From Hoyosella levis (GTDB lineage: Bacteria; Actinomycetota; Actinomycetes; Mycobacteriales; Mycobacteriaceae), in the NCBI RefSeq assembly GCF_026008515.1, contig NZ_BQYM01000001.1, positions 310,001-374,000 of the forward strand: a stretch of 64,000 nt of DNA, in the 5' to 3' direction. The notes below the pieces were generated by a model that saw only the letters and a program-made list of their open reading frames with translations, was not told the DNA's origin and did no database searches. Position numbers and translations under genes: made by a program. Of this stretch, positions 1 through 42,297 are shown piece by piece (the stretch's first letter is position 1; the number at the start of each line of letters is the position of its first letter).

Positions 1-312
1 CGCGTAGGCATTGGCGAGGGCGCGCCCGGTCACGTCACGACGATCATAGGAATAGCCGCGCATGTCGGCGTGCAGAATCCCGGCTCGACGGAGGTTCTCG
101 AACTCGTTGTACTTGCCGACGGCAGCGAAGCCGAGACGATCATAGAGCTCGCTGATCTTGTGCAGCGCCGTCGAGGGATTCTCCGCGACCAGCAGGATGC
201 CGTCGGCGTAGGCGAGAACGATGACGCTGCGGCCCCGGCCGATGCCCTTGCGCGCGAGCTCGGAGCGGTCGCGCATCACCTGTTCGGCGGATGCGTAGTA
301 CGGGAACGTCAC
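1..312 (-). CDS. prcA: Proteasome alpha subunit PrcA (partial, C-terminus outside window)
   Basis: This is the alpha-type subunit of the actinobacterial 20S proteasome, which forms the outer rings and gates entry to the chamber; it is not catalytic. The first 104 codons are visible, and the gene runs off the left edge. The start is GTG at 312, and the protein begins (M)[18 protein letters not shown], followed by the conserved [20 protein letters not shown] and [15 protein letters not shown] stretches typical of PrcA. The GTG overlaps the prcB stop as GTGA (309-312), so translation is probably coupled. It is the last visible gene of dop-pup-prcB-prcA; pafA would be expected beyond the edge, but that is inference. 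Confidence 0.95.
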
Positions 313-1178
313 GGTTGCTGGTCCTCCCCGGCGGATGCCCTGCGCTGGTTGATGATCTCCTCGGCGATCTGGCTGATCCGCTCCGCGGCAACCGCCTCCG
401 CCCCGGACCTCGTGATCACGGCCATCGTGGGATACAGCTGGCGGATCGCATCGAAGCCGCCGGTGGCGGTGTCATCATCGGAAGCATCGAACAGTGCCGC
501 GACCGCCGCGTGCTCGGCCTCCTCGCGCGGGAGCCCCTTGCGGTAGGTCTTCTTCAGCGCGGACCGGGCGAACAGGGATCCCGAGCCCACCGAGTAGTAG
601 CCGGCGTGCTCCTCGTAGCGCCCGCCCGTGACGTCGAACGACACGATCCGTCCTGCTGCGGCGTCGCTCGCGGCATCCACATCGAAGCCCACGAACAGGG
701 GCACCACCGCGAGACCCTGCAGGGCCGCGCCCAGGTTGCCGCGCACCATCGTGGCCAGGCGGTTCGCCTTGCCGTCGAGCGTCAGCGCCACGCCCTCGAT
801 CTTCTCGTAGTGCTCCAGCTCGACCGCGAACAGGCGCACCAGCTCGACCGCGACGCCCGCCGTTCCGGCGATGCCCACCGCGGAATGCTCATCGGTGATG
901 AACACCTTGTCGATATCGCGGCTCGCTACGATATTTCCCATGGTGGCCCGGCGATCACCCGCGATCAGCACGCCGCCCTCGAACGCGAGCGCGACGATCG
1001 TGGTGCCATGCGGCGCTAGGTCCTCGCTGCCACCACGCCCGTGAAGGTCAGCGGACCGGCTGCCCGGCAGGAGGTCGGGCGCATGGATGCGCAGGTAATC
1101 GCTGAACGATGACAGCTGCGAGTACCGCTGCGCCCCCGCGTCGCGCTGCATCATGCGCCACAGATCCTGCCCCGTCAC
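309..1178 (-). CDS. prcB: Proteasome beta subunit PrcB (catalytic)
   Basis: This is the catalytic beta subunit of the 20S proteasome, 289 residues, made as a proprotein. A propeptide of about 58 residues ends in HG. The mature chain then starts at Thr59 ([11 protein letters not shown]), the N-terminal nucleophile exposed by autocleavage. The GDRRATMGN motif carrying the catalytic Asp and the downstream DIDKVF region with the active-site Lys are present, as is the SDDDTATGG region near the C-terminal third. The start is GTG at 1178 and overlaps the pup stop as GTGA. The stop overlaps the prcA start in the same way, which suggests tight translational coupling of pup, prcB and prcA. Confidence 0.96.
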
Positions 1179-1363
1179 TGTCCGCCCTTCTGCACGTAGG
1201 CGCGCACGAAGTCCTCGGCATTCTCCTCGAGGACGTCATCGATCTCGTCGAGGAGATCGTCTGTGTCCTCGGTGACCTTCTCGACGCGCTCCTGGCCTCC
1301 GGTTCCCTGGGTGGCATCGTCGTCCTCGTTGCCACCGCCCCGCTTGATCTGCTCCTGAGCCAT
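1175..1363 (-). CDS. pup: Prokaryotic ubiquitin-like protein Pup
   Basis: Pup is the small, mostly disordered protein tag (62 residues) that is joined to lysines of proteins bound for the Mpa-proteasome. The sequence starts [11 protein letters not shown], has an acidic coiled-coil-forming middle ([26 protein letters not shown]) and ends GGQ. The C-terminal Gln means that Dop must deamidate it to Glu before PafA can ligate it. The start at 1363 is chosen because an upstream GAGGAGG ribosome site fits it and because the length matches the family (about 64 residues). A longer in-frame start at 1432 would add an extension foreign to the family. The stop overlaps the prcB start. Confidence 0.97.
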
Positions 1364-1514
1364 AGCGGCCACCTCCTCGATCGGTGCGTCTCGCCGGGGC
1401 GTCGGATCTCGTTCACCCGGGCGATAATTCAACAGTACCGGGAGACCACGACAACGTCCCGGAATGCCGGTGTTGTTCGCTCGCAGCGCCGGCGCCCCAG
1501 CCCACGCAACGCGC

Positions 1515-3014
1515 CTACTTGCCTAGCTGCTCGACGAGCTCGCGCGCGGACCCCACTGAATCGAGCAGGCCCTGGACATGGCGCTTGGTCCCCCGCAGTG
1601 GCTCCAGCGTCGGTACCCGCACCAGCGACTCCCCGCCCAGGTCGAAGATCACCGAGTCCCAGCTCGCCGCCGCGATATCCGCGCCGAACCGGCGCAGGCA
1701 CTCGCCCCGGAAGTACGCGCGCGTCGTCTCCGGCGGATTCGTCACCGCGCGCATGACCTCTTCCTCGCTGACCATGCGCTTCATCGACCCGCGCGCCACC
1801 AACCGGTTGTACAGGCCCTTGTCGAGCCGCACATCCGAGTACTGCAGGTCCACCAGGTGCAGCCGCGGCGCCGACCAGGCCAGCCCCTCGCGCTTGCGAA
1901 AGCCCTCGAGCAGGCGCAGCTTCGCCGGCCAATCGAGCAGGTCGGCGCAATCCATCGGGTCGCCCTCGAGCTTGCCCAGCACCTCCAGCCAGGTCGCTAC
2001 GACGTGCCGCGCACGCTCGTCATCGTCGCCACGCCGATCCAGGAATGCCAGCACCCGCTCGGCATACGCGCGCTGGATCTGCAATCCCGTCAGCTCGCGC
2101 CCATCGACGAGCTCCACCGTGGCCTGCAGGGTGGGATCGTGGCTGATCGCATGCACGGCGTCGACCGGATGGCGCAGCTGCAGGTCCGCGAAATCATTGT
2201 TCGCCTCCACCATGTCGAGCACCAGCGCGGTGGTCCCGACCTTGAGGTAGGTAGCAGTCTCGGCGAGATTGGCATCGCCGATGATGACGTGCAGGCGCCG
2301 GTACTTGTCGGCGTCCGCGTGCGGCTCGTCGCGCGTGTTGATGATGCCGCGCTTGAGGGTCGTCTCGAGCCCGACCTCCACCTCGATGTAGTCCGACCGC
2401 TGGGACAGCTGGAAACCTTCCTGGTCACCGTGCTGGCCGAGGCCAACGCGCCCCTGCCCGCAGATCACCTGCCGGGACGCGAAGAACGGCGTCAGCCCCG
2501 ACACGATCTTCGCGAACGGCGTCTCCCGCTTCATCAGGTAGTTCTCGTGGGTGCCATACGAGGCGCCCTTGCCGTCCACGTTGTTCTTGTACAGCTGCAG
2601 CCGCGGGTTTCCGGGCACGGACGAGCTGTAGCGCGCGGCGGCCTCCATGACGCGCTCCCCCGCCTTGTCCCAGATCACCGCGTCAAGCGGGTCCACGACC
2701 TCGGGGGCCGAGTACTCCGGGTGCGCATGATCGACATACAAGCGGGCCCCATTGGTGAGGATCATGTTCGCCGCGCCCACCTCATCGGCATCGATCACCG
2801 GCGCCGGGCCGCTGTAGCGCCCCAGGTCGAAGCCGCGCGCATCACGCAACGGGGACTCGACCTCGTAGTCCCACCGGGTCCGCCGCGAGCGCGGTACCCC
2901 CGCCGCCGCGGCATAGGCGAGCACCGCCTGGGTCGAGGTGAGGATCGGGTTCGCGGACTTGTCATCCGGCGAGCTGATCCCGTATTCCACTTCCGTGCCC
3001 ATGATGCGCTGCAT
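1515..3014 (-). CDS. dop: Pup deamidase/depupylase Dop
   Basis: Dop is a glutamine-synthetase-fold enzyme that deamidates the C-terminal Gln of Pup and also removes Pup from substrates. The protein has 499 residues, the usual length. It opens [18 protein letters not shown] with the conserved GTEVEYG nucleotide/metal motif, then has the [45 protein letters not shown] and RDEPHAD motifs of the Dop/PafA family. [14 protein letters not shown] and the C-terminal [16 protein letters not shown] block are also present. The start at 3014 aligns with the family N-terminus. In-frame codons continue upstream to about 3470, but they would add an unrelated low-quality extension. It lies 151 bp upstream of pup and is probably the first gene of the operon. 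Confidence 0.96.
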
Positions 3015-3147
3015 GGGTCCAAAGCCTAGGCGATCTCCCTGACGGAAGGGGCGCCCGGGCACGACAGCGAATGCGTGGCAATGGCTTCGCGCGGACGAGT
3101 AGCATCCGGATTGGAAGATCATCAACCAAGCCAAGGAGGCACGCGCC

Positions 3148-3534
3148 ATGCGAGCAACACGCCGGATCGCTACCGCCATCGCACTCATGCCAGCAGCGGC
3201 CATCCTCGGCGCCCCCACCGCGCTCGCCGACCACTGGAGCGAATGCGAGCAGATCTGTGCCGCGGAGGACACCTCCCTCTCCGCGACCGCCGTCAACGCC
3301 GGCATCGCCACCGCCGTGCTCATCCAGGGCGCCGACCCCGAGATGGAATGCCGCGCCGACCCCGCCGAGGCTGGGCTGGCCATCAAGGAGGACGGATGGG
3401 TGCCCGTTGACGAGTCCGGCACCGCGATCGTCGTCCTCGAAGGAGCAGTAGCGGGCGAGGTCTCCATCACTTGCGCTTACCCAAGCTCTGACGTGTTCTG
3501 GGCGACGCACGCCGATTCTGTGGCGCTGAGCTAG
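3148..3534 (+). CDS. Small secreted cysteine-containing protein, unknown function
   Basis: This 128-residue protein has a clear Sec signal peptide: positive MRATRR, a hydrophobic core, then the PTALA site with cleavage predicted before Asp27. The mature part is about 100 residues with four cysteines (two close together near the N-terminus in the SECEQIC motif, one at MECRAD and one at ITCAYP), so two disulfides are likely. A strong AAGGAGG ribosome site lies about 8 nt before the ATG. I do not recognise the family. The gene is divergent from dop and convergent with mpa, so it interrupts a locus whose other genes are all on the minus strand. A long inverted repeat follows its stop. Confidence 0.8.
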
Positions 3535-3563
3535 CTGGACCCGGAAGGGCTCTAGGCCAGAAT

Positions 3564-3620
3564 CCTATGAAGCTCAACGATCGCGGGCGTTCCTGTCCGG
3601 TTCTCGTTGAGCTTCATAGG
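3564..3620. terminator. Perfect 17-bp inverted repeat between convergent genes
   Basis: The left arm CCTATGAAGCTCAACGA (3564-3580) and right arm TCGTTGAGCTTCATAGG (3604-3620) are perfect reverse complements around a 23-nt loop. The element sits between the stops of the secreted-protein gene (+) and mpa (-), so it could act as a bidirectional terminator. There is no T-run on either side. The arms are not especially GC-rich, which is unusual for this genome. Confidence 0.65.
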
Positions 3621-3648
3621 CGGATTCCGGCGCCCTCTAGCCCTAGGC

Positions 3649-5403
3649 CTACAGGTACTGGCCGGTCTGGGACTCGGTGTCGATGGCCCGGCTAGTGCTG
3701 GCGTTCTTGCCGGTGACAAGAGTGCGGATGTAGACGATGCGCTCGCCCTTCTTGCCGGAGATGCGAGCCCAGTCATCGGGGTTGGTGGTGTTGGGCAGGT
3801 CCTCGTTCTCGGAGAACTCGTCAATGATCGAGTCAAAGAGGTGCTGCACGCGAAGCCCGCGCTTGCCGGTGTCGAGGAACTCCTTGATGGCGAACTTCTT
3901 GGCCCGGTCGACGATGTTCTGGATCATCGCGCCGGAGTTGAAGTCCTTGAAGTAGAGGACTTCCTTGTCGCCGTTGGCGTAGGTGACCTCGAGGAAGCGG
4001 TTGTCGTCGGTCTCGGCGTACATGCGCTCGACGACGCGCTCGATGATGCCGTGCACGCAGGCGTCCCGGTCGCCGCTGAACTCGGCGATGTCCTCCTCGT
4101 TGATCGGCAGATCGCTGGTGAGGTACTTGGAGAAGATGTCGATCGCGGCCTCGGCGTCGGGGCGCTCGATCTTGATCTTGACGTCGAGGCGACCAGGGCG
4201 CAGGATCGCGGGGTCGATCATGTCCTCGCGGTTGGATGCACCGATGACGATGACGTTCTCGAGCCCCTCGACACCGTCGATCTCGCTGAGCAGCTGGGGC
4301 ACGACGGTGGTCTCGACGTCGGAGGAGACTCCGGAGCCGCGGGTGCGGAAGATCGAGTCCATCTCGTCGAAGAACACGATGACGGGCGTGCCTTCCGATG
4401 CCTTCTCCCGCGCGCGCTGGAAGATCAGCCGGATGTGCCGCTCGGTCTCGCCCACGAACTTGTTGAGCAGCTCGGGGCCCTTGATGTTGAGGAAGAAGGA
4501 CTTGGCTTCCTTGGTGTCCTCCCCGCGGACCTCGGCGATCTTCTTGGCGAGCGAGTTGGCGACAGCCTTGGCGATGAGTGTCTTGCCGCAGCCGGGAGGG
4601 CCATAGAGCAGAACGCCCTTGGGCGGGCGCAGCGCGTACTCGCGGAAGAGATCGCGGTGCAGGAAGGGCAGCTCGACGGCGTCGCGGATCTGCTCGATCT
4701 GCCGGGAGAGGCCGCCGATGTCGTGGTAGTCGACGTCGGGGACCTCCTCGAGCACGAGGTCCTCGACCTCGGCCTTGGGGATGCGCTCGAAGGCGTAGCT
4801 CGATTTGGTGTCGACGAGCAGGGAATCCCCGGGGCGCAGGGCCCGCGTGGGGGTATAGGGGTCGAGATCCACGGGGTTGACGAGAGGATCAGCGAGCCAG
4901 ACGACGCGCTCCTCATCGGCGTGCCCGACCACGAGGGCACGGTGGCCGTCGTCGAGCAGCTCGCGGAGCGTGCTGATCTCGCCGACCTGCTCGAACGATC
5001 CCGCCTCGATGATCGTCAGCGCTTCGTTGAGGCGGACCGTCTGCCCCTTGCGCAAGGTGGTGGCATCGATGTTCGGGGAGCATTGCAGGCGCATGCGGCG
5101 CCCGGAGGTGAACACGTCGGCAGTCTCATCATCCGGAATGCCCACGACGACGCCGTAGCCGCTCGGTGGCTGCCCGAGGCGGTCGACCTCCTCGCGCAGG
5201 TTGAGCAGCTGCTGGCGCGCTTCCTTGAGCGTGTCGAGGAGCTTGGCGTTGCGGGCGGTGAGCGACTCGATGCGCGCCTCTAGCTCGCGGACCCGCTGCG
5301 GGTCGGCAGCGAGCTGGCGGCGCAGGCCATTGATCTCGGACTGTAGGTCCGTGATCTCACGATTCAGTTCTTCGCGGTCGCGGGGACGTTCTGACGTGCT
5401 CAT
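3649..5403 (-). CDS. mpa: Proteasome-associated AAA ATPase Mpa/ARC
   Basis: Mpa is the hexameric unfoldase that binds pupylated substrates and threads them into the 20S core. The protein has 584 residues. In order it has an N-terminal coiled coil (about 10-70, [19 protein letters not shown]) that binds Pup, a double OB region, then the AAA module. Walker A is GPPGCGKT near 270, Walker B is [10 protein letters not shown] near 342, and the RPGRLDVKI region follows. It ends GQYL, the C-terminal motif with penultimate Tyr that docks into the proteasome alpha ring, so coupling to PrcA is directly supported. A GGGAGGAG ribosome site precedes the ATG. It is separated from dop by the small plus-strand secreted gene, so it is probably transcribed on its own. 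Confidence 0.97.
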
Positions 5404-12135: not shown

Positions 12136-12939
12136 ATGGACGTACTCGTCATCATGGTGTTCCTCGCGATCATCGCGGGCGCCTCGTGGTGGGCGTGGCA
12201 GCAGGCCCGCGCGCGTGCCCTGTCGTCGGTGGCTCGCGGCGCGGTCGCCAACCTGGTGCGCGGCGCCGAGTCTCGCCTGCCCGAGGAGCCTCTCGATGCG
12301 CTCATCCACCGCATTGGCGAGCAGATCCTGCGCAAGTCCGAGCGGACGCTGAGCACCCGGGTGCTGCCCGAGAGCGTGGTGCTGATCGTGGCGCCCGAGG
12401 TGGCGAGCAGGATCACCAGGAACTGGGATTCGTTCACTGATGATCTCGCCAACTATGTGCTGTCGTCCGCGGCCGATGAGGACTACATCACCGGCGACGT
12501 GCGGTTCACCCTCGCGGAGAACGAGCGGTTCCACCGGCGTCGTGTCGATACCATCCTGAACAAGTCAGCCGCTCCTGCCGGTGCCCGGGTCCGCCGCTCC
12601 GCGCCGCGCCCCACCGGTGATGTCACGCAGGTGGTCGGGCGCGCGCAGTGGTTGATCGAACCGCCCTCGGGCAAGGCTGTTCCGATCTCGGAGGGCCGTG
12701 CGTGGAAGATCGGGGCCGGGGGCACGTGCGACATCATCATCAACGAGCCGATCGTCAGCCGCGAGCATGCCAGCATCACCGCGAAGGGCGACTCGCTGAC
12801 CATTACTGACTTGTCGAGCACCAACGGGACGTGGCTCGACAAGAAGAAGCTCGACCGCCCCCTCACGATCACCAAGGACACCACCATCGATCTCGCTGGA
12901 CGCGTCCCGGTTCGCTTCGTCCATCTCGCGGCGCTCTAG
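12136..12939 (+). CDS. Membrane-anchored DUF3662-FHA protein, FhaA-like
   Basis: This 267-residue protein opens with one hydrophobic helix (about 2-20, VLIMVFLAIIAGASWWAW). A DUF3662-like region follows (about 30-140, with RTLSTRVLPESVVLIVAPEV and NWDSFTDDLANYVLSSA). A C-terminal FHA domain (about 170-260) has the phosphothreonine-binding signatures WKIGAGGTCD, SREHASI and SSTNGTWLD. In mycobacteria FhaA is a phosphopeptide-binding regulator of peptidoglycan synthesis. Here it leads an operon whose third gene is a SEDS-PBP fusion, so it probably recruits or regulates that synthase. The N-terminal membrane helix is unusual. AGGAG lies about 9 nt before the ATG. Confidence 0.9.
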   Translation: MDVLVIMVFLAIIAGASWWAWQQARARALSSVARGAVANLVRGAESRLPEEPLDALIHRIGEQILRKSERTLSTRVLPESVVLIVAPEVASRITRNWDSFTDDLANYVLSSAADEDYITGDVRFTLAENERFHRRRVDTILNKSAAPAGARVRRSAPRPTGDVTQVVGRAQWLIEPPSGKAVPISEGRAWKIGAGGTCDIIINEPIVSREHASITAKGDSLTITDLSSTNGTWLDKKKLDRPLTITKDTTIDLAGRVPVRFVHLAAL

Positions 12940-12949
12940 CGGGCCGGCG

Positions 12950-13354
12950 ATGATCAACAACTTCCTCGCCCATGCGGCTGTCCTCATCATCGCTCTGCCC
13001 CTTCTCGCGCACGTGGTCCTGCGCGAGCGTCCGCCGAAGGAGGTCTCCCGGGCCTCCGGAAACGCACCGGTAGCAGGTTCGGGACGGGCAAGCGGCACAA
13101 AGGGAGCCCCGCCGAGCACGAAATCGGCCACGGGAGCGAAGGCACGCCGTTCCGGCAGCGACGGGACCGGTTCGCGATCGCTCGCCACGCGAATGCTGGG
13201 CCTGCCTCCCGAGGGCAAGCCCCCTAGCGGAAAACCCACCAGCAGCAAGTCCCCCAGCGGAAAATCCACCGGCGGAAAACCCACTAGCGGCAAGCCCGAT
13301 GCCAAGGATGGCGCCAAGAAGGGCCGTGGCGGCACGACGAAGCGGACGCGATGA
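12950..13354 (+). CDS. Small membrane-anchored, Lys/Pro/Ser/Gly-rich protein
   Basis: This 134-residue protein has one N-terminal membrane helix (MINNFLAHAAVLIIALPLLAHVVL). A long, highly basic and disordered tail ends in about six imperfect five-residue repeats of GKPTS type (about residues 88-118), encoded by a 15-bp tandem repeat near 13213-13300. I do not recognise a family. It lies 10 bp after the FHA gene, and its stop overlaps the start of the SEDS-PBP fusion as ATGA. Co-translation suggests it works with that enzyme, perhaps as a scaffold binding DNA, nucleotides or acidic cell-wall polymers, but this is inference. Confidence 0.8.
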   Translation: MINNFLAHAAVLIIALPLLAHVVLRERPPKEVSRASGNAPVAGSGRASGTKGAPPSTKSATGAKARRSGSDGTGSRSLATRMLGLPPEGKPPSGKPTSSKSPSGKSTGGKPTSGKPDAKDGAKKGRGGTTKRTR

Positions 13355-16017
13355 CTTCCACTACTGTGCCCGACCCCAGTGCCTCCACTGGCCCGCGCTG
13401 GACTTGGCATGAATCGCCGGTGGCCTCGACGTCCACCCGTGAATGGCGGATGGCGCTGCTCGTAGCGGCATCGAGCGGACTGCTGGTGCTCACCTCGCTG
13501 GGCAGGCTCGGCTGGCCGCTGGGGCAGGGCATCCTCCTGCTGATCGCTTCCCTGGTGGCACCGCTGCTGCTCACCGTGGCGGTGCGCGCGGCAATCGGCC
13601 CGCAGGTCTCCCTCGCGATGCCGTGGGCAGCGTGGTTCCTCACCTGCCTCGGCCTGGTCACCGGCTTCCGGCTAGCGCCGGGCAGCTTCATCACCACCAT
13701 GCTGTGGCTTGGCCTCGCGGTCACCGCGTTCGTCGTCTCGGCGCTGTTCACCAGCCGCTGGCATCCGCGGGTGTCCCGGCTGCACGCCGCGATGATCGCC
13801 GCCCTCGGCCTGGCCCTGATGGCGCTGCCGCTGGTGCCGTCCTTGGCCTACACAGTGGGCGAGGTGCGTGCCTGGATCCAGCTCGGCCCGTTCACCGCGC
13901 AGCCCGTCGAGTTCGCGCGCCCGCTCATCGTCATCTCCGTGGCGTTGCTGGCATTGTCGACGGCCTCGTCATTCCGCAAGGCCACCAAGCAGACCATCGC
14001 GATCACTGCGGTGCCGCTCTTCGCGGCCGGGCTGCTCGCGCTCTACCTCGACGATCTGGGCCCAGCGCTGGCGATCTTCGCGGGCGGTGCCACGATCATC
14101 ACGCTGTGCCTGCCCAAGATGCGCTACGCCCTGTGGCTCGCCGGGGCCGGTGCGGTGCTGCTCGGGCTGGTGTATCTGGTCTCGGGCAAGGTGCGCGACC
14201 GTGTATCCGAGATATGGGAGCCCGTTCTTCCTGATGGCAGCATCCGGCAGAACGGGATGGCGCAGATGGCTCTCTCGCGCGGGGGCTGGTTCGGCAGTGG
14301 CTTCAACCGCGGCAATCCCACTGTGGTGCCCGTGGTGGAGAGCGACTATGTGCTCGCTGGCATTGGCGAGGAGCGCGGCTACGTCACGCTGTTGGTGATC
14401 GTTGCGCTGTTCCTCGTGATCAGCCTCGCCGGGTGGTACTCGGCGCTGCGTGCTCGCACGCTGGCGATGCGGCTGATCACGGCAGGGCTGACGGCGATGT
14501 TCAGCATCCAGGCTGCCTACGTCATTCTCGGCAATCTCGGCGTGGTGCCCATGACGGGGATGGTCACGCCATTCCTGTCGAAGGGCGGCAGCGCGCTGAT
14601 CGGCATGTGGTTCACGATCGGCCTGATCGCGGGCGCTGGTTCCCGGGCGGTCAATCTCAATGCGCCGCGCAGCGAGCGGGATCTCACCCGGCGCATCGCG
14701 CGCGTCACCCCAGGCATCCCCGCGTTCTGGGTGCTTGTCGTCGCGGGCACGGTCATTGCCACGGCCGTGGTGGATCCGTTGCCCGCCTCGCAGTTCGGCA
14801 GCTTCGTGCCGCTCGACAAGCGCAGCGACCTGCTGGCCCGCGATGGCCAGGTGCTTGCGAGCACCACCCACGATGCGAGCGGGACCAGCCGGACCGTGCA
14901 TCAGGTGGCGGGAATGACCGATGCCAATCAGCGCTTGATCAGTGTCGTGGACAATCGCATCCAGGAATGGCCGAATTGCGGTAGCTGGTGGCGGCTGATG
15001 CTCGATCTTGACTGCCCGCCGCAGCCCGCTGTCTCCGCGCTGTCGCCGACGGTGCAGGCCGCTGCGCGCGACGCTCTCGGCGGCGTGTCCGGGGACGTCG
15101 TTGTCCTCGATACCGCCACGAGCTCGGTGCTCGCGGCCTACTCGACGCCTGATGCTTCCGGGCGCTGGGGCAATGGGCATCCGGCGCTGGCCGCGGACTC
15201 CGCGCCCGGTTCCACCTACAAGATCATCACAGCGGCCGCGGTGCTCGATGCCGGGCTGGAGGGGCAGACCGAGAGCCGCTCCGAGTACACCCCTCCCGGC
15301 GGCTTCGGCACCGTCCACAACCATGATCTTGGCCCTGCCGGCGGAACCCTGGAGGAGGCACTGGCCGAGTCCTCCAACACCGCTTTCGCGGAGCTCGCCA
15401 TCGAGATCGGAGCCGACCGGATCCGCGGGATGACCGATGCGATGAGCGGCTGGGACAACGACGGCACCACGTTCGCCAGCAGGCCCGTGGCGCTCGGTGG
15501 GCTCGGCGACCCCGATGCGATCGCTCGCACCGGTTTCGGCCAGCAGGATGTGCGTGCCACTCCCCTCGCTATGGCGCACGTCGCAGCGATCGTCGCCACC
15601 GGAGGCACGAGCAGCCCGCCCCGCTCCATCATCGGTGCGTGCCGCGGCGACCGCTACGCCCCGACCGATGCACCGGCTCGCGAGCGTGTCATCGAGCCCG
15701 AGGCAGCACAGCGCATCCGCGAGGGCATGGAGCTCTCCGTCAGCACCGGCAACGTGCCCGCCCTATACGGGCTCACCGAGGACATCGCCGCCAAGACCGG
15801 AACCGCCGAGAACAGCGACGGCCTGTACGACGGCTGGATCGTCGCCATCGCTCCGGTGGAGGGCAGCAACATCGTCGTCGCGGTGCGGGTCCTCGCGGAC
15901 TCCGCGACAGGAACGGACCGGGGTGGCGCTAGCAGTGCCGGACCCGTCGCCGCTTCGGTACTGCGCGCCGCGATCGCCGACCGCGGCGCCAGCACTAATC
16001 CCTGCGCCGGCAACTAG
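13351..16017 (+). CDS. SEDS glycosyltransferase-class B PBP transpeptidase fusion (RodA/FtsW + PBP2-like)
   Basis: One 888-residue protein holds both halves of a peptidoglycan synthase. Residues about 30-440 form a multi-spanning SEDS domain with the characteristic GGWFGSGFNRGN and ESDYVLAGIGEERGY segments; Asp332 in the latter matches the essential SEDS aspartate. GMVTPFLSKGGSALIG is also typical. After a further membrane helix (about 460-478, FWVLVVAGTVIATAVV), a periplasmic linker leads to a penicillin-binding transpeptidase domain. It has SxxK at Ser621-Lys624 (STYK), SxN at Ser674-Asn676 (SSN) and KTG at Lys815-Gly817. SEDS polymerases and class B PBPs normally act as separate partner proteins; here they are one chain. 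It is the last gene of an ATGA-coupled operon. Confidence 0.96.
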   Translation: MTSTTVPDPSASTGPRWTWHESPVASTSTREWRMALLVAASSGLLVLTSLGRLGWPLGQGILLLIASLVAPLLLTVAVRAAIGPQVSLAMPWAAWFLTCLGLVTGFRLAPGSFITTMLWLGLAVTAFVVSALFTSRWHPRVSRLHAAMIAALGLALMALPLVPSLAYTVGEVRAWIQLGPFTAQPVEFARPLIVISVALLALSTASSFRKATKQTIAITAVPLFAAGLLALYLDDLGPALAIFAGGATIITLCLPKMRYALWLAGAGAVLLGLVYLVSGKVRDRVSEIWEPVLPDGSIRQNGMAQMALSRGGWFGSGFNRGNPTVVPVVESDYVLAGIGEERGYVTLLVIVALFLVISLAGWYSALRARTLAMRLITAGLTAMFSIQAAYVILGNLGVVPMTGMVTPFLSKGGSALIGMWFTIGLIAGAGSRAVNLNAPRSERDLTRRIARVTPGIPAFWVLVVAGTVIATAVVDPLPASQFGSFVPLDKRSDLLARDGQVLASTTHDASGTSRTVHQVAGMTDANQRLISVVDNRIQEWPNCGSWWRLMLDLDCPPQPAVSALSPTVQAAARDALGGVSGDVVVLDTATSSVLAAYSTPDASGRWGNGHPALAADSAPGSTYKIITAAAVLDAGLEGQTESRSEYTPPGGFGTVHNHDLGPAGGTLEEALAESSNTAFAELAIEIGADRIRGMTDAMSGWDNDGTTFASRPVALGGLGDPDAIARTGFGQQDVRATPLAMAHVAAIVATGGTSSPPRSIIGACRGDRYAPTDAPARERVIEPEAAQRIREGMELSVSTGNVPALYGLTEDIAAKTGTAENSDGLYDGWIVAIAPVEGSNIVVAVRVLADSATGTDRGGASSAGPVAASVLRAAIADRGASTNPCAGN

Positions 16018-19478: not shown

Positions 19479-20852
19479 CTAGACGACCTGGAGGAGCGGC
19501 CTGGTGCCAGCGACCGAGCGCAACGGTGTTCGCGGGTCGCTGTGGGCAAAGTTGCCGAGGAAGTTGAGGAATCGTTGCAGGTGCGCGGCGATCTCCTCGT
19601 GGATGTAGAGGTGGGGGTTCGCCTCGATGTCCAGCGCCAGCTCGCCAGCGTGGTCGTAGCGCAGGGTGACGACGAGATCGTGAACGAGTCCGTCGGTGAG
19701 CGCGTGGCTTATCGCGGTGGTGCCGTCGATCGGGACGGTGGGATCGGCGAGAGCGAGATTGATCGTGGGACCGAACGCGTGGGCGTGGTCGCCGATCAGC
19801 CCGTGCTCGCGGATGATGTCATCGTTGCGGAAGCGCTGGTGCGCGATCGCTCCGGCGATGCTGTCGCGCGCCGCGCGGATGGCCTGGGCGATGCTGGTGT
19901 TCTCGTTGATGCCGGTGCGCAGCGGGACGGTGTTGCCCAGTGCGCTCGCCGATCGACGGATCGCGATCCGGGTGCGCGCGGCGACGGGCAGCGTGAGGGT
20001 GGTGTCGCGGGTTCCGGTGATGCGGCTCACGTAGCCGGCGAAGGCCGCGGTGACGATCGCGGCGACGGTGCTGCCGGAGTATTGCGCGATCTCATCGATC
20101 ATCGCGGCAGTGTCACCGGGGATCGTCGCCGACTTGCGGATGGTCGCCACCGAGGCTGGCGCGGTCGTGCCGGCGAGGCTGATGGCCTCGGTCGCGCCGT
20201 CGAGAGTGGTGGCCCAGTAGTCGCGGTCCTCGTCGTAGGCATCCGAGCCACGGTAGGCCTGGTCCTGCTCGATGAGGTCCGCGATGGGCAGGCCGCTGAA
20301 CGCTGGGACTGCCCGGTCGGCGAGCGTGGCGTTGTGCACCTGCGCGACACGACGAAGGAACAGCTGGCATGATGCCGGATCGGCGATTATGCGGTGGGCC
20401 CTCATGTACCAGATGTGCTGGCCTGGCCCGATCGCGAGCAGCGCGGTGTCGAGGAGCGGGCCGTTGAGAATGTCGACCGGGGTGGAGCGGTGGAGGCACA
20501 TCCAGTCCTGGGCCGCGCCCGCGGGATCGTCCTCGCCGGTGAGGTCTACGACGGCCAGGCCTGCGCCGCGCGGGGCGCTCGTGGTCCCCTGATAGGGCCA
20601 GCCGTCATGCTCGACGATGCGCGTGCTGGTGAATCCGAGCTCGTGGGCGGCCCGGTCGACGGAGCGTGCCAGGAGGGCGATGTCGAGCGGCCCGTCGATG
20701 GTGACGTAGCGGGTGAGGCAATCGGGGACGCTGGGGCTCATGCGTTGCACGAACCATGCGTTGGCTTGCGATGCCGTGAGCGGGATGCCATGGCCGCCCC
20801 GGGGTGCGGGCTTCTCGTCGCGCGTGCTGCCTTTCACACTGTGACTATCCAT
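19479..20852 (-). CDS. Free-standing condensation-like protein with degenerate active site
   Basis: This 457-residue protein is a single NRPS-type condensation (C) domain without A or T partners. Its N-terminal half aligns by eye with the first C domain of the NRPS encoded nearby (IPLTASQANAWFVQRMSPSVP against [31 protein letters not shown] against MHHVTIDG). The catalytic HHxxxDG motif is changed to HRIIADP: the second His is Arg and the final Gly is Pro. Normal condensation chemistry is therefore doubtful. It may be a structural or carrier-binding partner, or catalyse something else. The start at 20852 has a G-rich ribosome site; a longer frame begins at 20954. It is divergent from the PHA-synthase-like gene. 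Confidence 0.88.
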   Translation of the reverse strand: MDSHSVKGSTRDEKPAPRGGHGIPLTASQANAWFVQRMSPSVPDCLTRYVTIDGPLDIALLARSVDRAAHELGFTSTRIVEHDGWPYQGTTSAPRGAGLAVVDLTGEDDPAGAAQDWMCLHRSTPVDILNGPLLDTALLAIGPGQHIWYMRAHRIIADPASCQLFLRRVAQVHNATLADRAVPAFSGLPIADLIEQDQAYRGSDAYDEDRDYWATTLDGATEAISLAGTTAPASVATIRKSATIPGDTAAMIDEIAQYSGSTVAAIVTAAFAGYVSRITGTRDTTLTLPVAARTRIAIRRSASALGNTVPLRTGINENTSIAQAIRAARDSIAGAIAHQRFRNDDIIREHGLIGDHAHAFGPTINLALADPTVPIDGTTAISHALTDGLVHDLVVTLRYDHAGELALDIEANPHLYIHEEIAAHLQRFLNFLGNFAHSDPRTPLRSVAGTRPLLQVV

Positions 20853-21185
20853 CGAGCCCCCCGAAGCGTTACAGGCATACCGTCTTGTCGTCGCATTGCT
20901 GGTGATCCGTAACCAATCGTGGCGGGGATTGGTGCATCTCGTCACGTGGAGCAACCGTGCTCGTGTTTTCTACCCTAATTGATGAGGGTTTTGCTGACGA
21001 TCCGTCGATTGCATGACACTAGTTCTCGGGGCGCGGCGGCTTTGTCCGGTGTGGTGTTGTTCACCCATGGGTTACGCCACCTAAACCTACTGTGACAAAA
21101 TGCCTCATTAATAGCGGTCGCACGCTTCACGGCAACCCAGCACTGCCTTGCCACGACTTGCCTGTCCCAGAAGGAGCCCACCAGC
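20853..21185. promoter_or_regulatory. Divergent promoter region of the NRPS locus
   Basis: About 333 bp, notably more A+T-rich than the rest of the window, separates the condensation-like gene (-) from the PHA-synthase-like gene (+). It contains the 10-bp palindrome ACCCATGGGT (21063-21072) within GTTCACCCATGGGTTAC, a possible operator, and an AT-rich stretch around 21090-21112. I cannot define the start sites. Confidence 0.45.
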
Positions 21186-22388: not shown

Positions 22389-25300
22389 CTAGCCGGTCCC
22401 TCGCTCCGCCAGCTCGATCCTGCCGCTGGAGCCGAGGCGGGCGCCGAGCCCGAGGCGGATCAAGCGACCACCAGGGCTAGTGGCGTGCGGGTCCGCGACC
22501 AGGGTGGCGGCGGTGCTCCCGGCTCCGGAGACGAGATGGCTAGCGAGGCCAGCATCGCAGGCGTATAGCTGTCCGGCAGTGGCGGGCGCGAGCTGCTCGT
22601 CGAGTATGCGCAGGGTGATGCCTGGTGCTGGCTCGATGCCGCGCGCGTCACCGTGCAGCAGGATTCCAGCAAGATCCGGGCCCGTGGCGTCGATGAGGGC
22701 GTCGTCGAGGTCGATGGTCGAGCCCATGGAGAGCGCCTGGATGATCGCCATCTGTCCGGCCGGAGCGCTTCCGGGCCCGGTGAGCAGCGCGGCGCCAAGC
22801 TGGGTGAGGGCGATCGATTCGCCACCGTGGGGCACGATGATCGCTGGGGTCGTCTCGCGCAGGGGATGCGGACGGTCGTAGAAGGTGACCGGGCTCGCGG
22901 GTTGCTGCTTGATCTGTGTCGCGGTCGCCGCATCGCCGAGCAGGATCCATTCGGTCGCCTCGGATCCAGCCGTGCTGTCCTCGTCGAGGCCGATACCGAG
23001 GTCGGACCGCGTGGTCGCGGCGGGTGTTCCTTCGGTCATCACGATCGTCGCGCCAGTCTTGACCACGGCGAGCAGCGCGACGACCAGCTCCAGGGACGGG
23101 GGCACTGCCACCCGCACTGTGGTGCCGGCCCGGGCACCGCGGCCAAGGAGCAGCCGGGCGAGGCGCGATGACCTGCGATCGAGGTTGCGGAACGTGAGCT
23201 CGGAGTCGTTGCGGCGGGCGGCGATGGCAGTCGGACCATTCTCGATGGCCGCCTCGATGGCTTGCAGGAGCGTAGCGGGCGCGCCTGCCACCGCCTCGCC
23301 CTCGATCCGTTCCGGGGAGAGCACCGGCGCCGCGTCGGCCACCCCATCCTCGTGCCCGGCCAGCGCGATGTCGCCCACCGTCGTCCCTGGACTGGTAACG
23401 AGCGTCTCGAGGATGGTGGCGTACCAGGCGGCGATGCGCCGGACAGTCTTCTCCTCGAAGAGGTCCCGTCGATACGTGATGCTGCCGCTCAACCTGTTCT
23501 CGTCCTCGACGATGCCAAAGGTGAGGTCGGTCTTGGCGACGTGCAGGCCGTGGTCGAGCGCCGCGATCTCGAGCCCGGCGAACGTGGCCGTGCCTGGCCG
23601 GGCGCGGTCGACCGAGAGCAGCACCTGGTAGACGGGGCTGTGGGTGATCGGGCGGCGCGGCATCACGGCGTCCACGATCGCCTCGAATGGCACGTCCGCG
23701 TGCGAGTAGGCGGCAATATCGGCACGCCGTGCCTGGCTGATCACTTCCGCCGCGGTGGCGGTGGGGTCGATAAGGGTGCGCAGCGGGAGGGTGTTGACGA
23801 ACATCCCCACGAGGTCAGCCAGCGCTGGGTCGCTTCGCCCCGCCGTGGGGGTGCCCACGACGATGTCGCTGCTACCGGTGATGCGGGCGAGCAGCACGGC
23901 CAGTGCCGCGTGCAGCACCATGAACGTGGTGGTTCCGGTTTCCCGCGCAGTCGCCGCGAGTCCCTTCTCGAGGCCCGGGGCCAGTGGCAGGTCCACGGCA
24001 CCGCCATCCGCCGCGGGAATGGCCGGCCGGGGCTTGTCGAGCGGCAGATCGAGCACATCGGGTGTCCCGGCGAGAGCGCGCCGCCAGAACGTGATCTGCT
24101 CGGACCACAACGAGCCCGGATCGCGCGGGTCGCCAAGCAGGTCATGCTGCCAGGCCGCGTAGTCGAGGTAGCTGATCGGTAGTGGCTCCCAGCCAGGTTC
24201 GGTGCCAGCGGCGCGGGCGGCATAGGCGGAGATCATGTCACGCACCAGCGGCGGGATCGATTCGCCATCGGCGGCGATGTGATGCACCACCAGCGCGAGG
24301 ATGTGCTCGTTGGTGCCGGTGCTGATCACCTCGATCCGGATGGGCGCTTCGGAGGTGACGTCGAAACCCCGGCCAACGAGGCCGAGGAGACCGTCGGTGG
24401 CGTCTGCGGGAGCGAGCGAGAGCTCGGTGAGCACGGTGGCGCTCACCGCCTGGGTGTCGAGGACGCGCTGGTACGGTTCCCCGGCCTCGCTCGGGAAGAT
24501 GGTGCGCAGCATGAGGTGGCGCTCGAGGATGTCCTTGACCGCAGCTCTCAGGGCTGCACGGTCGAGGGTGCCGCGCAGGCGCAGGGCGACCGGGATGTTG
24601 TAGGTCGCGAGCGCAGGGTCCCACCGGTTGAGGATGTGCATGCGTTCCTGAGCCGGGGAGAGCGGCGGATGCGCTGGATGAACGCGGGGCGCGAGCGGCG
24701 GTCGTGCCGGGCCGGTGGCTCGCTCGTCGAGGATGCTGGCAAGCCCCGCGATGGTGGGCTGCTCGAAGATGTCCTGGGCGCGCAGGGTGGTACCGGTAGC
24801 GGCGCTGGCGCGGGCGACGACCTTCAGCGCGGTGAGCGAGTGTCCGCCGAGCTCGAAGAAGGAGACATCGGTGCTGGCGTTCTCGATTCCGAGGACGTCG
24901 ACGAAGATGCCGGCGAGCAGTTCCTCCGTACCGGTCGCCGGAGCCACGATGCTGCCCGTGGAGGGCCGTGCTGCGGGCGCGGGCAGTGCCCGGCGGTCGA
25001 TCTTGCCGCTCGCGGAGAGCGGGAACTCCGGCAGCGCGATGATGTGGGCGGGGATCATGTAGTCGGGCAGCGTGCTGGCCAGCGCGGCTCGTGCCGTGCG
25101 GGGGAAGTCCTCGTCGAGCGAGCTGGTGGCGGCGTAGGCGATGAGCTGGTCGCCCTCGGCGACGACGAGTGCCTGGTTGACGGTGCCGAGCGCGAGGAGA
25201 GCCGCCTCGATCTCGCCGAGCTCGATGCGCAGGCCACGGATCTTGACCTGGAAATCGGTGCGCCCTAGGTAGTCGAGGGCACCGTCGGAGCGCCAGCGCA

Positions 25301-28300
25301 CGAGGTCACCGGTGCGGTACAGCCGTCCCCCCGCCGCGAAGGGATCCGCGACGAATCGCTGCGCGGTCAGCCCGGGCAGGTTGCCGTACCCGCGAGCCAC
25401 GGGCAGCCCGCCGATGTAGAGCTCACCAGGCAGTCCGGGCGGGACCGGGCGCAGCCAGTCGTCGAGCACATGCAGGCGGGCGTTCGCGATCGGGGTACCG
25501 ATCGGGGCCGGATCGATGTCGGGGCCGACAGTCCAGCGCGCGACGATGTCGGAGGCCTCGGTGGGCCCGTAGCTGTTGATGATGCGCACGCCGCGGTCGA
25601 TGAGCTCGCGGACCATGTTCATGCGGATGGGCTCGCCGCCGAGGTACACGGTGCGCAGGCCCGCGAGGATGCTGTCGTTGTCGGCCTCGACGAGTGCTTC
25701 GAACGCGCTGGGGGCCATGTTCGCGAGCACGATGCCCTCGTCCGCCACCGCGCGCAGGATGCTGGCGGGGTCGAATCGCGGCTCGGCGAGGTGGAGGGTC
25801 GCCCCGAGGCACAGCGCGGACCACACCTGCTTCTGGGTGAGGTCGAAGGTCGGCGCGGACGCGACGAGCACGCCTTCCCCGGCCAGGACGTCAAGCTCGC
25901 CGAGGTACCAGTGGAGGGTGTTGAGGATGCCTCCGATCGGCACCAGGGTGGGCTTTGGCCGACCCGTGGATCCCGAGGTGGTGATGACGTATCCCAGGCG
26001 ATGGCGGGCGCCGGGATCGGTCCATCGATCAGGCAAGATGCCGGGCATCGAGCCCGGGGACATCGAGCCCGGCGGCATCGTGCCGATGGTGATGGCGCGG
26101 CCGGGTCCGATCGCTTCGCTGTGCTTCCAGCCGGGCAGGCAGGCAACGATGCTCGCGCCAGTGTCCTCAAGGATCGTGGCGATGCGGGCAGGGGGCAGGG
26201 TGGGATCCACCGGTAGGTACGCGGCCCCGGCCTTCCAGGCAGCGACCATGCCGACGATCCAGGCACGGGACCGGGGTACCGCGAGCGCCACGACATCCTC
26301 GGGGCCGATGCCCCGCTCGATCAGCTGGTGCGCGATCTGCCCGGACCAGTGTTCCAGCTCGGCATAGGTGAGGGAGCCATCGGCGGCCGCGACCGCTCGG
26401 GCCCCGGGCCGCTGGCGGGCCTGCTCGCGGATCAATGCCAGTGGCGTCGCGGGAGGAGTTGCCGTGGTGCCTGTCCCCCATTCGGCGATCTGCTCGCGCT
26501 CGCGGTCCGTGAGCAGCGGGTGGTCGCGCAGCGGGGCCGCGGGGACCGTGGTGACGTGATCGATGAGGAGGAGGAGCCGATCGACGAGCACCTCGATGGT
26601 GTGGTGATCGAACAGCTCTGCCGCGTAGGTAACGATGACCTCGCGGGGCGCATGCTCGGTCGGCTCGGTGATGGTGAACTGCAGGTCGAACTTCGCGGTC
26701 GCGCCATCGGCGTCGAGGAACTCGGCTTCGAGCCCGGCGAGCCGCAGCACTGGCACGGCTTGGTTCTGGAACGACAGCATCACCTGGAAGAGGGGCGTGT
26801 GCGCGCGGGACCGCGGCGGATCCACGGCATCGACGACCTGCTCGAACGGAACATCGGTGTGGTCGAACGCCTCGAGGTCGACGCGGCGCGCCTCCGCGAG
26901 CAAGTCCTCGAAGGATTGGCCGCCATCGACGCGCAGGCGCAGCACGAGCGTATTGACGAACATGCCGACGAGGTCGTCGAGCGCGGCCTCGCCCCGTCCG
27001 GCGATGGGGGTGCCGATGGCGATATCGGTAGTGCCGGATTGCGTGGACAGCAGCGCGGCGAGCACGGCGTGCATTGCCATGAACGGCGTCGCGCGGTGCT
27101 CGCGCGCGAGGCTGTTGAGGCGTTCGATGGCTTCCGCGGGAAGGGGCGCGCGGTAGGTAGCGCCGCGCGTGCCCTGGCGGGCGGGTCGGGGGCGATCAGT
27201 GGGCAGCGGCAGTAGCTCGGGCAGCTCAGCGAGCTGGTCCGTCCAGTAGCCCAGCTCCGAGGCCGCGAGCGAGGCGGGATCGCTGGGGTCCCCGAGGACC
27301 AGGCGCTGCCAGATCGCGAAGTCCGCGTACTGCACGGGCAGCGGGTTCCAGCCAGGCTCGAGCCCATCGGTGCGCGCCTGGTACGCGAGCATCAGGTCAC
27401 GGGCCAGCGGCGCCATGGACGCGCCGTCCGCGGAGACATGGTGCACGGCGACGGCGAGGATGTGCTCGTCCGTGTCGCTGATGCTGATCAGCGCGGCGCG
27501 CATCGGGATAGCGGCACTGGTGTCGAAGGCTGTCGTCACGATCTCCATCGCGTGGCCATGCGCCTCGGCGGCGCTCGCGGCGGCGAGGTGCTCAAGACGT
27601 GGCGCGCGCTCGACCGGCAGGATGACCTGGATGGGCCCGTTCGGTGTGCTCGGGTAGAGGGTGCGCAGTACCTCGTGGCGCGCGAGGACGTCGTCGAGGG
27701 CAGCGCTCATGGCATCGACGTCGAGCGTGCCGCGCAACCGGATGGCCAGCGGGATGTTGTAGACGGCGTTGCCGGGGTCGATGTCGTTGAGGATGCGCAT
27801 GCGCTGCTGCGCGAGCGACAGGGGAAGCTCGGCGGGCCGATCCATGGGCGCGAGCGGAACGCGTGTTGTCGAGCCTCGCCGCCCCAGGCGAGCCGCGAGC
27901 TCGACGATGGAGGGGGCATCGAAGAGGTCGCGCACGCTGATGGCCACGCCAAGCGCATCGCTGGCCCGGGCCGCGGCCTTGGCCGCGGACAGCGAGTTGC
28001 CACCCAGGTCGAAGAAGCTGGTGGTGGTACTGATCTGGCGGGTGCCCAGCACGTCGGCGAAGACGTCGGTGAGCAGTTCCTCGGTAGGCGTGGCGGGCGA
28101 TCGATGCTCGGTGCTGGTGCTGGCGAAGTCGGGGCGCGGCAGGCGCGCGCGGTCGAGCTTGCCGTTGACGGTGACGGGCCATTCCGCGACGAGCAGGATC
28201 TGCGTGGGCACGAGGTAGGACGGGGCGCGGCGGGCAACGTGGGCGCGGACCTCGTCGATATCGATGCCGGGGCTCGTGGCGGTGATGTAGGCAATGAGGT

Positions 28301-31300
28301 GGTCACCGAGGCTCTCGTCACGGTGCACCATCGCCACGGCCGCGGTGACTCCGGGGTGGCTGGCGATAATCGCCTCGGCCTCGCCGAGCTCGATCCGCAG
28401 GCCGCGCAGCTTGACCTGGAAATCGGTGCGTCCCAGGTAGTGCAGGGCATGGTCGTGGTCCCAGCGCACGAGATCGCCGGAGCGGTACATGCGTTGCCCT
28501 GGCTTGCCGTAGGGGTTGGCGACGAACCTGGCCGAGGTCAGGTCGTGCTGGCCGAGGTAGCCGCGGGCCTCCCCCACCGAGACGATGTAGAGCTCGCCGG
28601 GGACCCCGACGGGGACCGGCCGGAGCCGCTCGTCGAGGACGAGGACCGCGTTGCCAGCGATCGGGCGCCCAATGGTGACGGGCTCGCCGGCGCGCATCGC
28701 ACCGGTGGTGGTGGTCCAGATCGTGGTCTCGGTGGGGCCGTACAAGTTGTGCATGGCCACGTGCGGGGCCCAGGTGTCGACGAGTTCTGGCGGGCATGCC
28801 TCGCCCGCGACGGCCAGCGCTCGCAGGTGCGGCAGGTCGCTGGGCAGGCCCAGCGATGCGAGCACCGAGGGGGTGAGGAACGCGTGGCTGATGCGCTGCT
28901 CGGCGAGGACCGCGGCGAGCGGCTCGCCGGCGGTGATGCTCGGCGGCACGATCACGGTAGTGGCGCTCGCGCACAATGCCATGAGCATCTCGAACACGGC
29001 TGCGTCGAAGCTGGGCGAGGCCAGGTGGGTGACTCGGGAGTCGCGGCCGACGCCAAGCAGGCGCAGTTCCTCGCGGGCCACGGTCGCGAGCCCGGCGTGG
29101 GGCACCATCACGCCCTTGGGGACGCCGGTGGAGCCCGAGGTGAAGATGACGTATGCCGCGTTGGCGGGACCGAGCGGGCCGCGTCGCTCGCGTGGCTTGA
29201 TGCGGAGGCCAGGTGCGACCGACACGCGATCTCGCGTGGTGGGGTCGTCGAGGTCGAGCTGCCGCAGGCCACCGGGCAGCGGGGCGCCACCGCTGGTGAT
29301 GCCGAGGATCGCCCCGGAACGGCGGATCATGTCCTCGGCGCGCTCGGGCGGATGGGCCGGGTCGACCGGCAGGTAGGCCGCGCCCGTCTTCGTGACCGCC
29401 CAGATGGCGGAGAGGGTGGCGAGGCCGCGGCCCGCGGAGATGGCGACAACTGTCTCGGGGCCCGCGCCCTCCTCGATCAGGATCCGGGCGAGCTGATTGG
29501 TCGAGGAGTCGATCTCGGCGTAGGTGTGGGACCGGTTCTCCGCGACGATGGCGATGTGGTCCGGGGCCCGATCGACGGCCTCGGCGAGGATCTCGGGCAG
29601 CAGGAGCGCGGGACCGGGCTCGGCGCCGCGCGCGGGGACGAGCGCTCCAGCCTCGGCTGGGCGCAGCATCTCGATGCGCGAGACGATCGTTGCCTCATGC
29701 TCGGTCACGGTCATGAGCAGCGCGATGAGTCGCTCGGCGAGCCTATCGATCGTGGCGGCATCGAACAGGTCGGTGGCATAGACGAGCCGGGCGGTGGCGC
29801 CGATGGGAGTTCCCTCCTCGCTGGCGCGTTCCTCGACGTCGACCGTCAGGTCGAACTTGGTGACGTCCACGTCGATCCCGGCGGGCTCGATGATGATGCC
29901 GGGGAGCTCGATGCGGGCCTCCCGCGCCTCGCCGACCGCGAGCGCCACCTGGAACAGCGGCGCGTGGGCGGCGGTCCGTTCGGGCGCGAGCGCTTCGACG
30001 AGCGACTCGAACGGGACATCTGCGTGGCTGAACGCGTCGAGGTCACGGTCGCGGATGTCCTGCAGGACCGTGGCGAAGCTCGCGTCGGGGTCGATCACGG
30101 CCCGCAGCACGAGGGTGTTGACGAACATGCCGACGAGCTCGTGGAGTACCTCGCTGGCGCGACCTTCGATGGCCGTGCCGATGGCGATGTCCCGCATCCC
30201 TGACATGCGCGCGAGCAGCACCGCGAGCGCCGCGTGGTACACCATGAAGGGGGTGGCGCCATGCGCCTTGGCGAGCGAATGGATGGCCTGGTGCAGGCTG
30301 GCCGGGATGGGCCTGTCGATGCGCGCGCCCGAAGCGGTGCGCTGCGCCGTGCGGGGCCGATCGGTGGGCAGCTCGAGCACGGGCGGCAGGTCGGCGAGCA
30401 CGTTCTCCCAGTGGTCGAGCTGCGCGGCCAGCCGGGTTCCTGGCCTGGCCGTGTCGCCGAGCACCTCCCGCTGCCAGAGGGCGTAGTCGATGTAGGTGAC
30501 AGGCAGGGGCTGCCAATCGGGAGGGGTGCCGCCACAGCGGGCGTTGTAGGCGGTGAGCAGGTCCCGGGCCAGCGGTGCCAGGGATGCGCCGTCGAGCGCG
30601 ATGTGGTGAGCCACGATGCCGAGCACGTGGTGGTCGTCGTCGAGGCGCCACAACGCTGCGGCGAACGGTGCCTCGGCGGCGACGTCGAAGGTCGTGGTAG
30701 CGAGCGCGATCATGTCCTGGCGCAGCGCTTCGCCGCGGGTAAGCCGGGGCTCGAGAGCGATGCGGGTGGCCTCATCGACGACCTGGACCGGCCCGTCCGG
30801 CGTGGAGGGATAGCGCGTCCGAAGCGTCGCGTGCCGCTCGACGACATCGCGCAGCGCCTGCTCGAGCGCATCGGTGTCGAGGATTCCGGTGAAGCGGATG
30901 GCGAAGGGGATGTTGTACTCGGCAGCGCCAGGGGCGTACTGGTTGAGGATCCACATCCGTGCCTGGGCGAAGGACAAGGGCGCGTGGTCAGGTCGTGGCC
31001 TGGCCTCGACGGGCGGCAGCGCCTCGGTGCCCGTTCTCGCGGCGATAGCCCGCGCTATCCCGCGCACCGTCGGCGCCGCGAAGAGATCGCGGATGGTGAC
31101 CTCGCTGCCGGTCGCCTCGCTGATCCGGCCAAGGACCCTGATCGCAGCGAGGGACGTACCGCCGAGGTCGAAGAAGCTCGTGCTCGCGCCCACCCGCGTG
31201 GTTCCGAGCACGTCGCCGATGACTCCCGCGACGAGGCGCTCGAGCTCGCCCTCGGGCTCGATGATGTCCTCGATCTCCGGTTCGAGGTCCGGGGCGGGCA

Positions 31301-42068: not shown

Positions 42069-42297
42069 GCGGCTCCTTATCGCTGCCCCGGCCTTGCCAC
42101 CATTGTCCACGCCTAGCGGAGCGATGGCCGCTGGCCAGGCTCTGGGGGCAACCGCCGCGTACCCGCGCGGACTGTGACCACCAGCACTCCATGCATGTAC
42201 GTTACAACTACTTCACACTATGTCTGTTAAGTGGCAGGGATACTGTAGCTATCACCGCGCGGGCGCTAGCCACGGTGCCCGGCACGCCGTCATCCTG
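42069..42297. promoter_or_regulatory. Divergent region, NRPS / DUF202 gene
   Basis: It holds the NRPS promoter (-), with the ribosome site AAGGAG at about 42072-42077 on the minus strand, and the promoter of the DUF202-HNH pair (+). The segment 42190-42260 is A+T-richer than its surroundings and is the likeliest promoter position. No clear operator was seen. Confidence 0.4.

Follow-up and report, generated by a model that had tools for sequence, protein, structure and literature searches.

An 888-residue reading frame of Hoyosella levis carries both a SEDS polymerase domain and a class B penicillin-binding protein (PBP) transpeptidase domain, which raises the question of whether this single chain takes the place of the RodA–PbpA pair in the organism or works beside it, and in what role. 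The frame lies in a window of 64,000 nucleotides (contig NZ_BQYM01000001.1, positions 310,001 to 374,000), and the features of the locus, in window coordinates, are as follows.

12136–12939, + strand: FHA-domain protein, 267 aa, tentatively FhaA-like, with an N-terminal transmembrane (TM) helix (residues 1–23) followed by a cytoplasmic FHA domain (PF00498, E 3.5e-15)
12950–13354, + strand: small protein, 134 aa, with a single N-terminal TM helix (residues 1–28) and a basic Lys/Ser/Gly-rich tail
13351–13354, + strand: ATGA overlap (from the sequence), the start of the fusion lying on the stop of the upstream 134-aa gene
13351–16017, + strand: single-chain SEDS::class B PBP fusion (ORF reading, Pfam)
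13684–14631, + strand: SEDS domain, Pfam-matched part, residues 112–427, with predicted catalytic Asp332 (PF01098, alignments)
14647–14790, + strand: Arg-rich linker (about residues 433–452) and PBP-type TM helix (about 449–480) (hydropathy, sequence)
14791–15096, + strand: reduced pedestal, about residues 481–582, with Cys543 and Cys555 (PbpA alignment, cysteine survey)
15097–15963, + strand: transpeptidase domain, residues 583–871, with S621xxK624, S674xN676, K815TG817 and Cys764 (PF00905, alignments)

The fusion starts at an ATG, contains no internal stop and has a calculated mass of 92.1 kDa, slightly below the value near 93 kDa given in an earlier note on this DNA. That note had also described one frame with both domains, and this was confirmed by ORF reading and by Pfam matches to PF01098 (E 7e-41, 140.8 bits against a cut-off of 26.4) and PF00905 (E 5e-35, 121.6 bits against a cut-off of 22.1). 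The PF01098 match, above its curated cut-off and accompanied by the conserved loop-4 Asp, identifies the N-terminal half as a SEDS protein, and the PF00905 match with SxxK, SxN and KTG motifs and no GT51 domain in the Pfam scan identifies the C-terminal half as a class B PBP. Asp332 sits in VVESDYVLAGIGEE and pairs with the Asp of the FtsW 'HTDF' motif in the PDB alignment, the motifs of the fusion align with the solved FtsW and PbpA sequences, and D332, S621-x-x-K624, S674-x-N676 and K815-T-G817 are invariant across six divergent relatives; the catalytic residues named earlier were thus found at the numbers given and in register with the SEDS and PBP families. Hydropathy analysis predicts one TM helix following the Arg-rich segment, consistent with a cytoplasmic linker. 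The last SEDS helix contains M419 and the linking helix V461, and no ATG, GTG or TTG codon lies between these two residues, making a separately started PBP half unlikely.

The ATGA overlap suggests translational coupling, and the FHA protein, the small membrane protein and the fusion apparently constitute a three-gene operon in which the fusion is last. The 134-aa protein gave no Pfam match and is conserved in Lolliginicoccus lacisalsi; its slot is occupied by a short FhaB-like FHA protein in two other genomes of the family (G193 and G271), a short FHA-like gene being seen at this position in L087. Among the FHA homologues FhaA_N scored above cut-off in that of Dactylosporangium alone, the match in the Hoyosella homologue being weak and below cut-off. 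A gene for an SNF2 helicase is located near the fusion, and neither a kinase nor a phosphatase is encoded in the window cassette. Elsewhere in the window are Pup-proteasome genes (309–5403, − strand; proteasome subunit, Pup ligase-family protein and proteasomal AAA ATPase), a stand-alone condensation-domain protein (19479–20954) that is kept in the other genus members, and a 6573-aa non-ribosomal peptide synthetase (NRPS; 22389–42110, − strand), which lies about 6 kb from the fusion on the opposite strand with six genes intervening.

A single-frame fusion is present in all four Lolliginicoccus/Hoyosella genomes, the proteins of the other three (Lolliginicoccus suaedae, L. lacisalsi and Hoyosella rhizosphaerae) being 96, 93 and 67% identical to that of the window. 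With both domains in one ORF and kept in related genomes, this is a natural SEDS–PBP fusion; the same frame in four independent assemblies excludes chance read-through or assembly error and upholds the earlier statement that no frameshift separates the halves. In comparisons within the genus dN/dS was 0.06–0.10 for the whole ORF, 0.03 for the SEDS half and 0.07–0.12 for the transpeptidase half, the comparison with the 67% identical relative being near saturation at synonymous sites. Both halves of the fusion are under purifying selection.

Profile searches of the contigs of the genome identified three SEDS loci, namely the fusion, an FtsW on contig C11 and a RodA on contig C6, and the strongest PF00905 loci lie near the latter two, corresponding to FtsI and PbpA, respectively. 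The C6 locus has the canonical gene order FhaA, FhaB, PstP, RodA, PbpA, PknB. The earlier note had proposed looking for separate rodA and pbpA genes beside pknA/pknB as the means of distinguishing replacement from a second synthase, and their presence indicates that the fusion is an additional synthase. FtsW, RodA, FtsI and PbpA are also retained in four further fusion-bearing genomes (G001, G003, G193 and G347).

Both halves of the fusion are closer to the elongation pair than to the division pair of the same genome, the SEDS half scoring 102 bits against RodA and 78 against FtsW and the transpeptidase half 105 bits against PbpA and 54 against FtsI; the top PDB match was Mycobacterium PbpA. 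Identity to the RodA–PbpA pair is about 25% for the SEDS and 30% for the transpeptidase half. In phylogenetic trees the fusion and its relatives, here termed type A, form a single clade with support of 98/97 for the SEDS half and 100/99 for the transpeptidase half, showing a single origin of the lineage. Members of the genus, and likewise the Rhodococcus copies on plasmid pLW2 and in G347, fall into the same groups in both trees, which fits one fusion event followed by common descent. Long branches were observed for G193 and for the most distant member, G501. In the SEDS tree the type A clade lies outside both sampled RodA and sampled FtsW, neither clade including the SEDS half, and the tree therefore does not reveal the cellular role. 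No usable pattern emerged from a mixed SEDS alignment.

Type A fusions occur in members of the genus, in Rhodococcus (including the conjugative plasmid pLW2), in Dactylosporangium and in a few further genomes. Within the family they were found in 10 of 401 genomes (four in the genus, four in g6 and two in g4), a count that excludes G378, whose DNA shows adjacent but separate rodA and pbpA genes; a 1542-aa open frame in G054 was similarly rejected, since reading the DNA revealed separate ORFs. One further type A fusion, that of G501, was found in an order-wide sample of 299 genomes, and scans of viral contigs found no relatives. A hit was also obtained on the plasmid of R. fascians D188, a virulence plasmid; the LW-XY12 plasmid was used as plasmid representative and the D188 plasmid was left out.

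The cassettes of G193 and G271 run from an SNF2 helicase through a small gene, an FHA protein and a short FHA-like protein to the fusion. In Rhodococcus (closely similar cassettes of pLW2, G279, G286, G347 and G352) and Dactylosporangium (L055) a Ser/Thr kinase joined to DUF4407, a PP2C phosphatase and an FHA protein are encoded ahead of the fusion. With these genes the cassette looks like the fhaA-fhaB-pstP-rodA-pbpA-pknB locus copied in a rearranged order. The kinase fused to the membrane domain DUF4407 (L049:4968-7454, L083:5174-7588, L055:5146-7527) lies upstream of the PP2C, FHA and fusion genes, and a second DUF4407 gene is present in L083. Directly 3' of the Rhodococcus fusion gene is a conserved protein of 279–290 aa (L049:12396-13235, L083:12701-13573) with no Pfam match. 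The FHA gene and the fusion of G352 form a single 1205-aa frame (L084:4396-8013), whereas in a near-identical relative the frame is broken between the two (L085:9139-12195), so the longer frame may be either a real triple fusion or a sequencing difference. PADLOC matches in the plasmid cassette were confined to generic kinases and phosphatases, with nothing for the fusion or the FHA protein, and lend no support to its being a defence system.

Alignment with PbpA shows that the pedestal of the fusion is shortened, and neither of the pedestal/dimerisation domains PF03717 and PF21922 was detected in the window fusion at E 1e-3. PF21922, the PbpA dimerisation domain, was weak in the relative G193 and strong in canonical PbpA. 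Four extracytoplasmic cysteines (C543, C555, C764 and, just past the transpeptidase domain, C885 in the window protein) occur at matching positions in six of seven divergent type A members, the seventh, G501, apparently having only the last two. This set is absent from PbpA of the same genome and from RodA::PbpA fusions at canonical loci, and C543–C555 and C764–C885 would be the likely disulfide pairs. AlphaFold2 models had a mean pLDDT of 46.1 for the whole fusion (five-row alignment) and 40.5 for residues 440–888, values at which neither the position of the pedestal nor disulfides could be supported.

Taken together, these data lead us to favour, with a probability of roughly 0.7, the reading that the fusion descends from an elongation (RodA–PbpA) pair and serves as an accessory peptidoglycan synthase in one chain, under FHA- and phosphorylation-dependent control. 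The SEDS half would polymerise lipid II via Asp332, and its predicted cytoplasmic C-terminus would lead through the short Arg-rich linker into the PBP TM helix and so to the transpeptidase, with Ser621, outside the membrane. Stoichiometry would be fixed at 1:1, and by analogy with SEDS–class B PBP synthases and with active engineered RodA–PBP2 fusions a single molecule should make strands from lipid II and cross-link them. SEDS–class B PBP pairs are normally controlled by partner recognition and by activation through the PBP pedestal and SEDS loop 4. In E. coli this activation is thought to pass via contact of the pedestal with loop 4 (PMC8078798). The fusion has only a reduced form of this activation-transmitting pedestal, which a Cys543–Cys555 disulfide probably stabilises, and tethering may partly take over from pedestal–loop 4 activation. 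The FHA partner would imply phosphothreonine-dependent control, the neighbouring FHA protein probably acting as reader of Ser/Thr phosphorylation. The phosphorylation would be supplied by host kinases and PstP in the genus, the window cassette lacking such enzymes and thus presumably resting on those of the host, and by the kinase and PP2C of the cassette itself in Rhodococcus and Dactylosporangium. It is possible, although we would not give it even odds, that type A stands alongside RodA and FtsW as a SEDS lineage in its own right, the third. It would then be a cassette that is portable and self-contained, with an FHA reader and in many cases a dedicated kinase and phosphatase, and the normal recognition and allosteric activation between SEDS protein and class B PBP would be superseded by a covalent tether together with a small pedestal held by a disulfide.

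A division- or stage-specific synthase with a role like that of FtsW–FtsI would be in keeping with the position of the type A SEDS clade, which is not within RodA, and with the preference of the fusion for the NCBIfam ftsW model over the rodA model (158.9 against 111.3 bits). However, RodA of the same genome also ranks the ftsW model higher (255.8 against 208.4 bits), making this ranking uninformative, and with both halves nearer to RodA and PbpA and the FHA neighbour FhaA-like we consider a division role unlikely. The NRPS in the window, together with NRPS sequence near the locus in relatives and the plasmid location of other type A members, is what might be expected of a resistance or bypass synthase tolerating a wall-targeting compound, such as the product of that NRPS or one met by the plasmid hosts. 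The NRPS is, however, on the other strand beyond six genes, none was recognised among the genes listed beside the Rhodococcus, Dactylosporangium and G193 copies, and no resistance-specific motif was seen, so that this explanation appears quite improbable. Weak scores against RodA and PbpA models and the reduced pedestal could also reflect a decaying or inactive copy kept merely as a scaffold, yet the invariance of all catalytic residues in divergent relatives and dN/dS values of 0.03–0.12 by region render this highly implausible.

Natural single-ORF SEDS–PBP fusions have been mentioned previously, with citation of the Rhodococcus RHA1 genome (Nygaard 2023; PMC10449877), and like the window fusion they join a SEDS polymerase and a transpeptidase in one ORF; the general kind is already known and the novelty that the earlier note attached to it was overstated. 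That mention is a single sentence describing no sequence family. An earlier description of type A, of the cysteines or of the FHA/kinase cassette was not found in the literature searched, a scope outside which many subscription papers fall, and type A is apparently a lineage of actinobacterial fusions not described before, carried in part on plasmids. A separate fusion type on Rhodococcus plasmids (R. pseudokoreensis, WAY2 and R. oxybenzonivorans) has a full PF03717 pedestal; two such full-length fusions with a normal pedestal (L050:5979-8819, L051:5994-8819) are unrelated in origin to that of the window. In other families of the phylum, RodA::PbpA single ORFs of 919–1022 aa lie by fhaA, fhaB, pstP and pknB (L196:8272-11037, L197:8036-10795, L198:3354-6422 and L200:7679-10519). 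Like type A they unite RodA and PbpA in one ORF, but they group with canonical RodA and PbpA, stand at the canonical locus and do not have the set of cysteines typical of type A, and their occurrence at two places in the trees indicates that such fusions arose more than once.

The canonical RodA–PbpA pair shares with the type A fusion the enzyme order and the FHA/phosphatase/kinase context and is the best-matching ancestry for both halves, whereas the fusion is one chain, belongs to a separate SEDS clade, has a reduced pedestal and four extracytoplasmic cysteines, and is extra to the canonical locus. Engineered fusions of E. coli RodA and PBP2 are active (PMC6207328, PMC10449877) and have the topology expected of type A, the SEDS C-terminus being joined to the PBP N-terminus and TM helix with the transpeptidase outside, but consist of E. 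coli proteins with a man-made linker and a full-size pedestal. Class A PBPs also combine polymerase and transpeptidase in one polypeptide, although their polymerase is a GT51 domain and that of the fusion a SEDS domain.

Type A is best read as a duplicated, portable, phosphosignalling-linked synthase of the elongation type. Fusion of RodA and PbpA types has apparently taken place several times in the phylum, suggesting that tethering the partners at 1:1 is a solution reached repeatedly. The type A protein occurs naturally as one chain, has a reduced pedestal, is maintained by selection alongside the ordinary pair and is linked to FHA, kinase and phosphatase genes. It is thus suited to asking whether the SEDS–PBP interface is needed once the partners are tethered, and how phosphorylation controls a wall synthase. 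That plasmids carry a wall-synthesis cassette also prompts one to ask what benefit it brings them.
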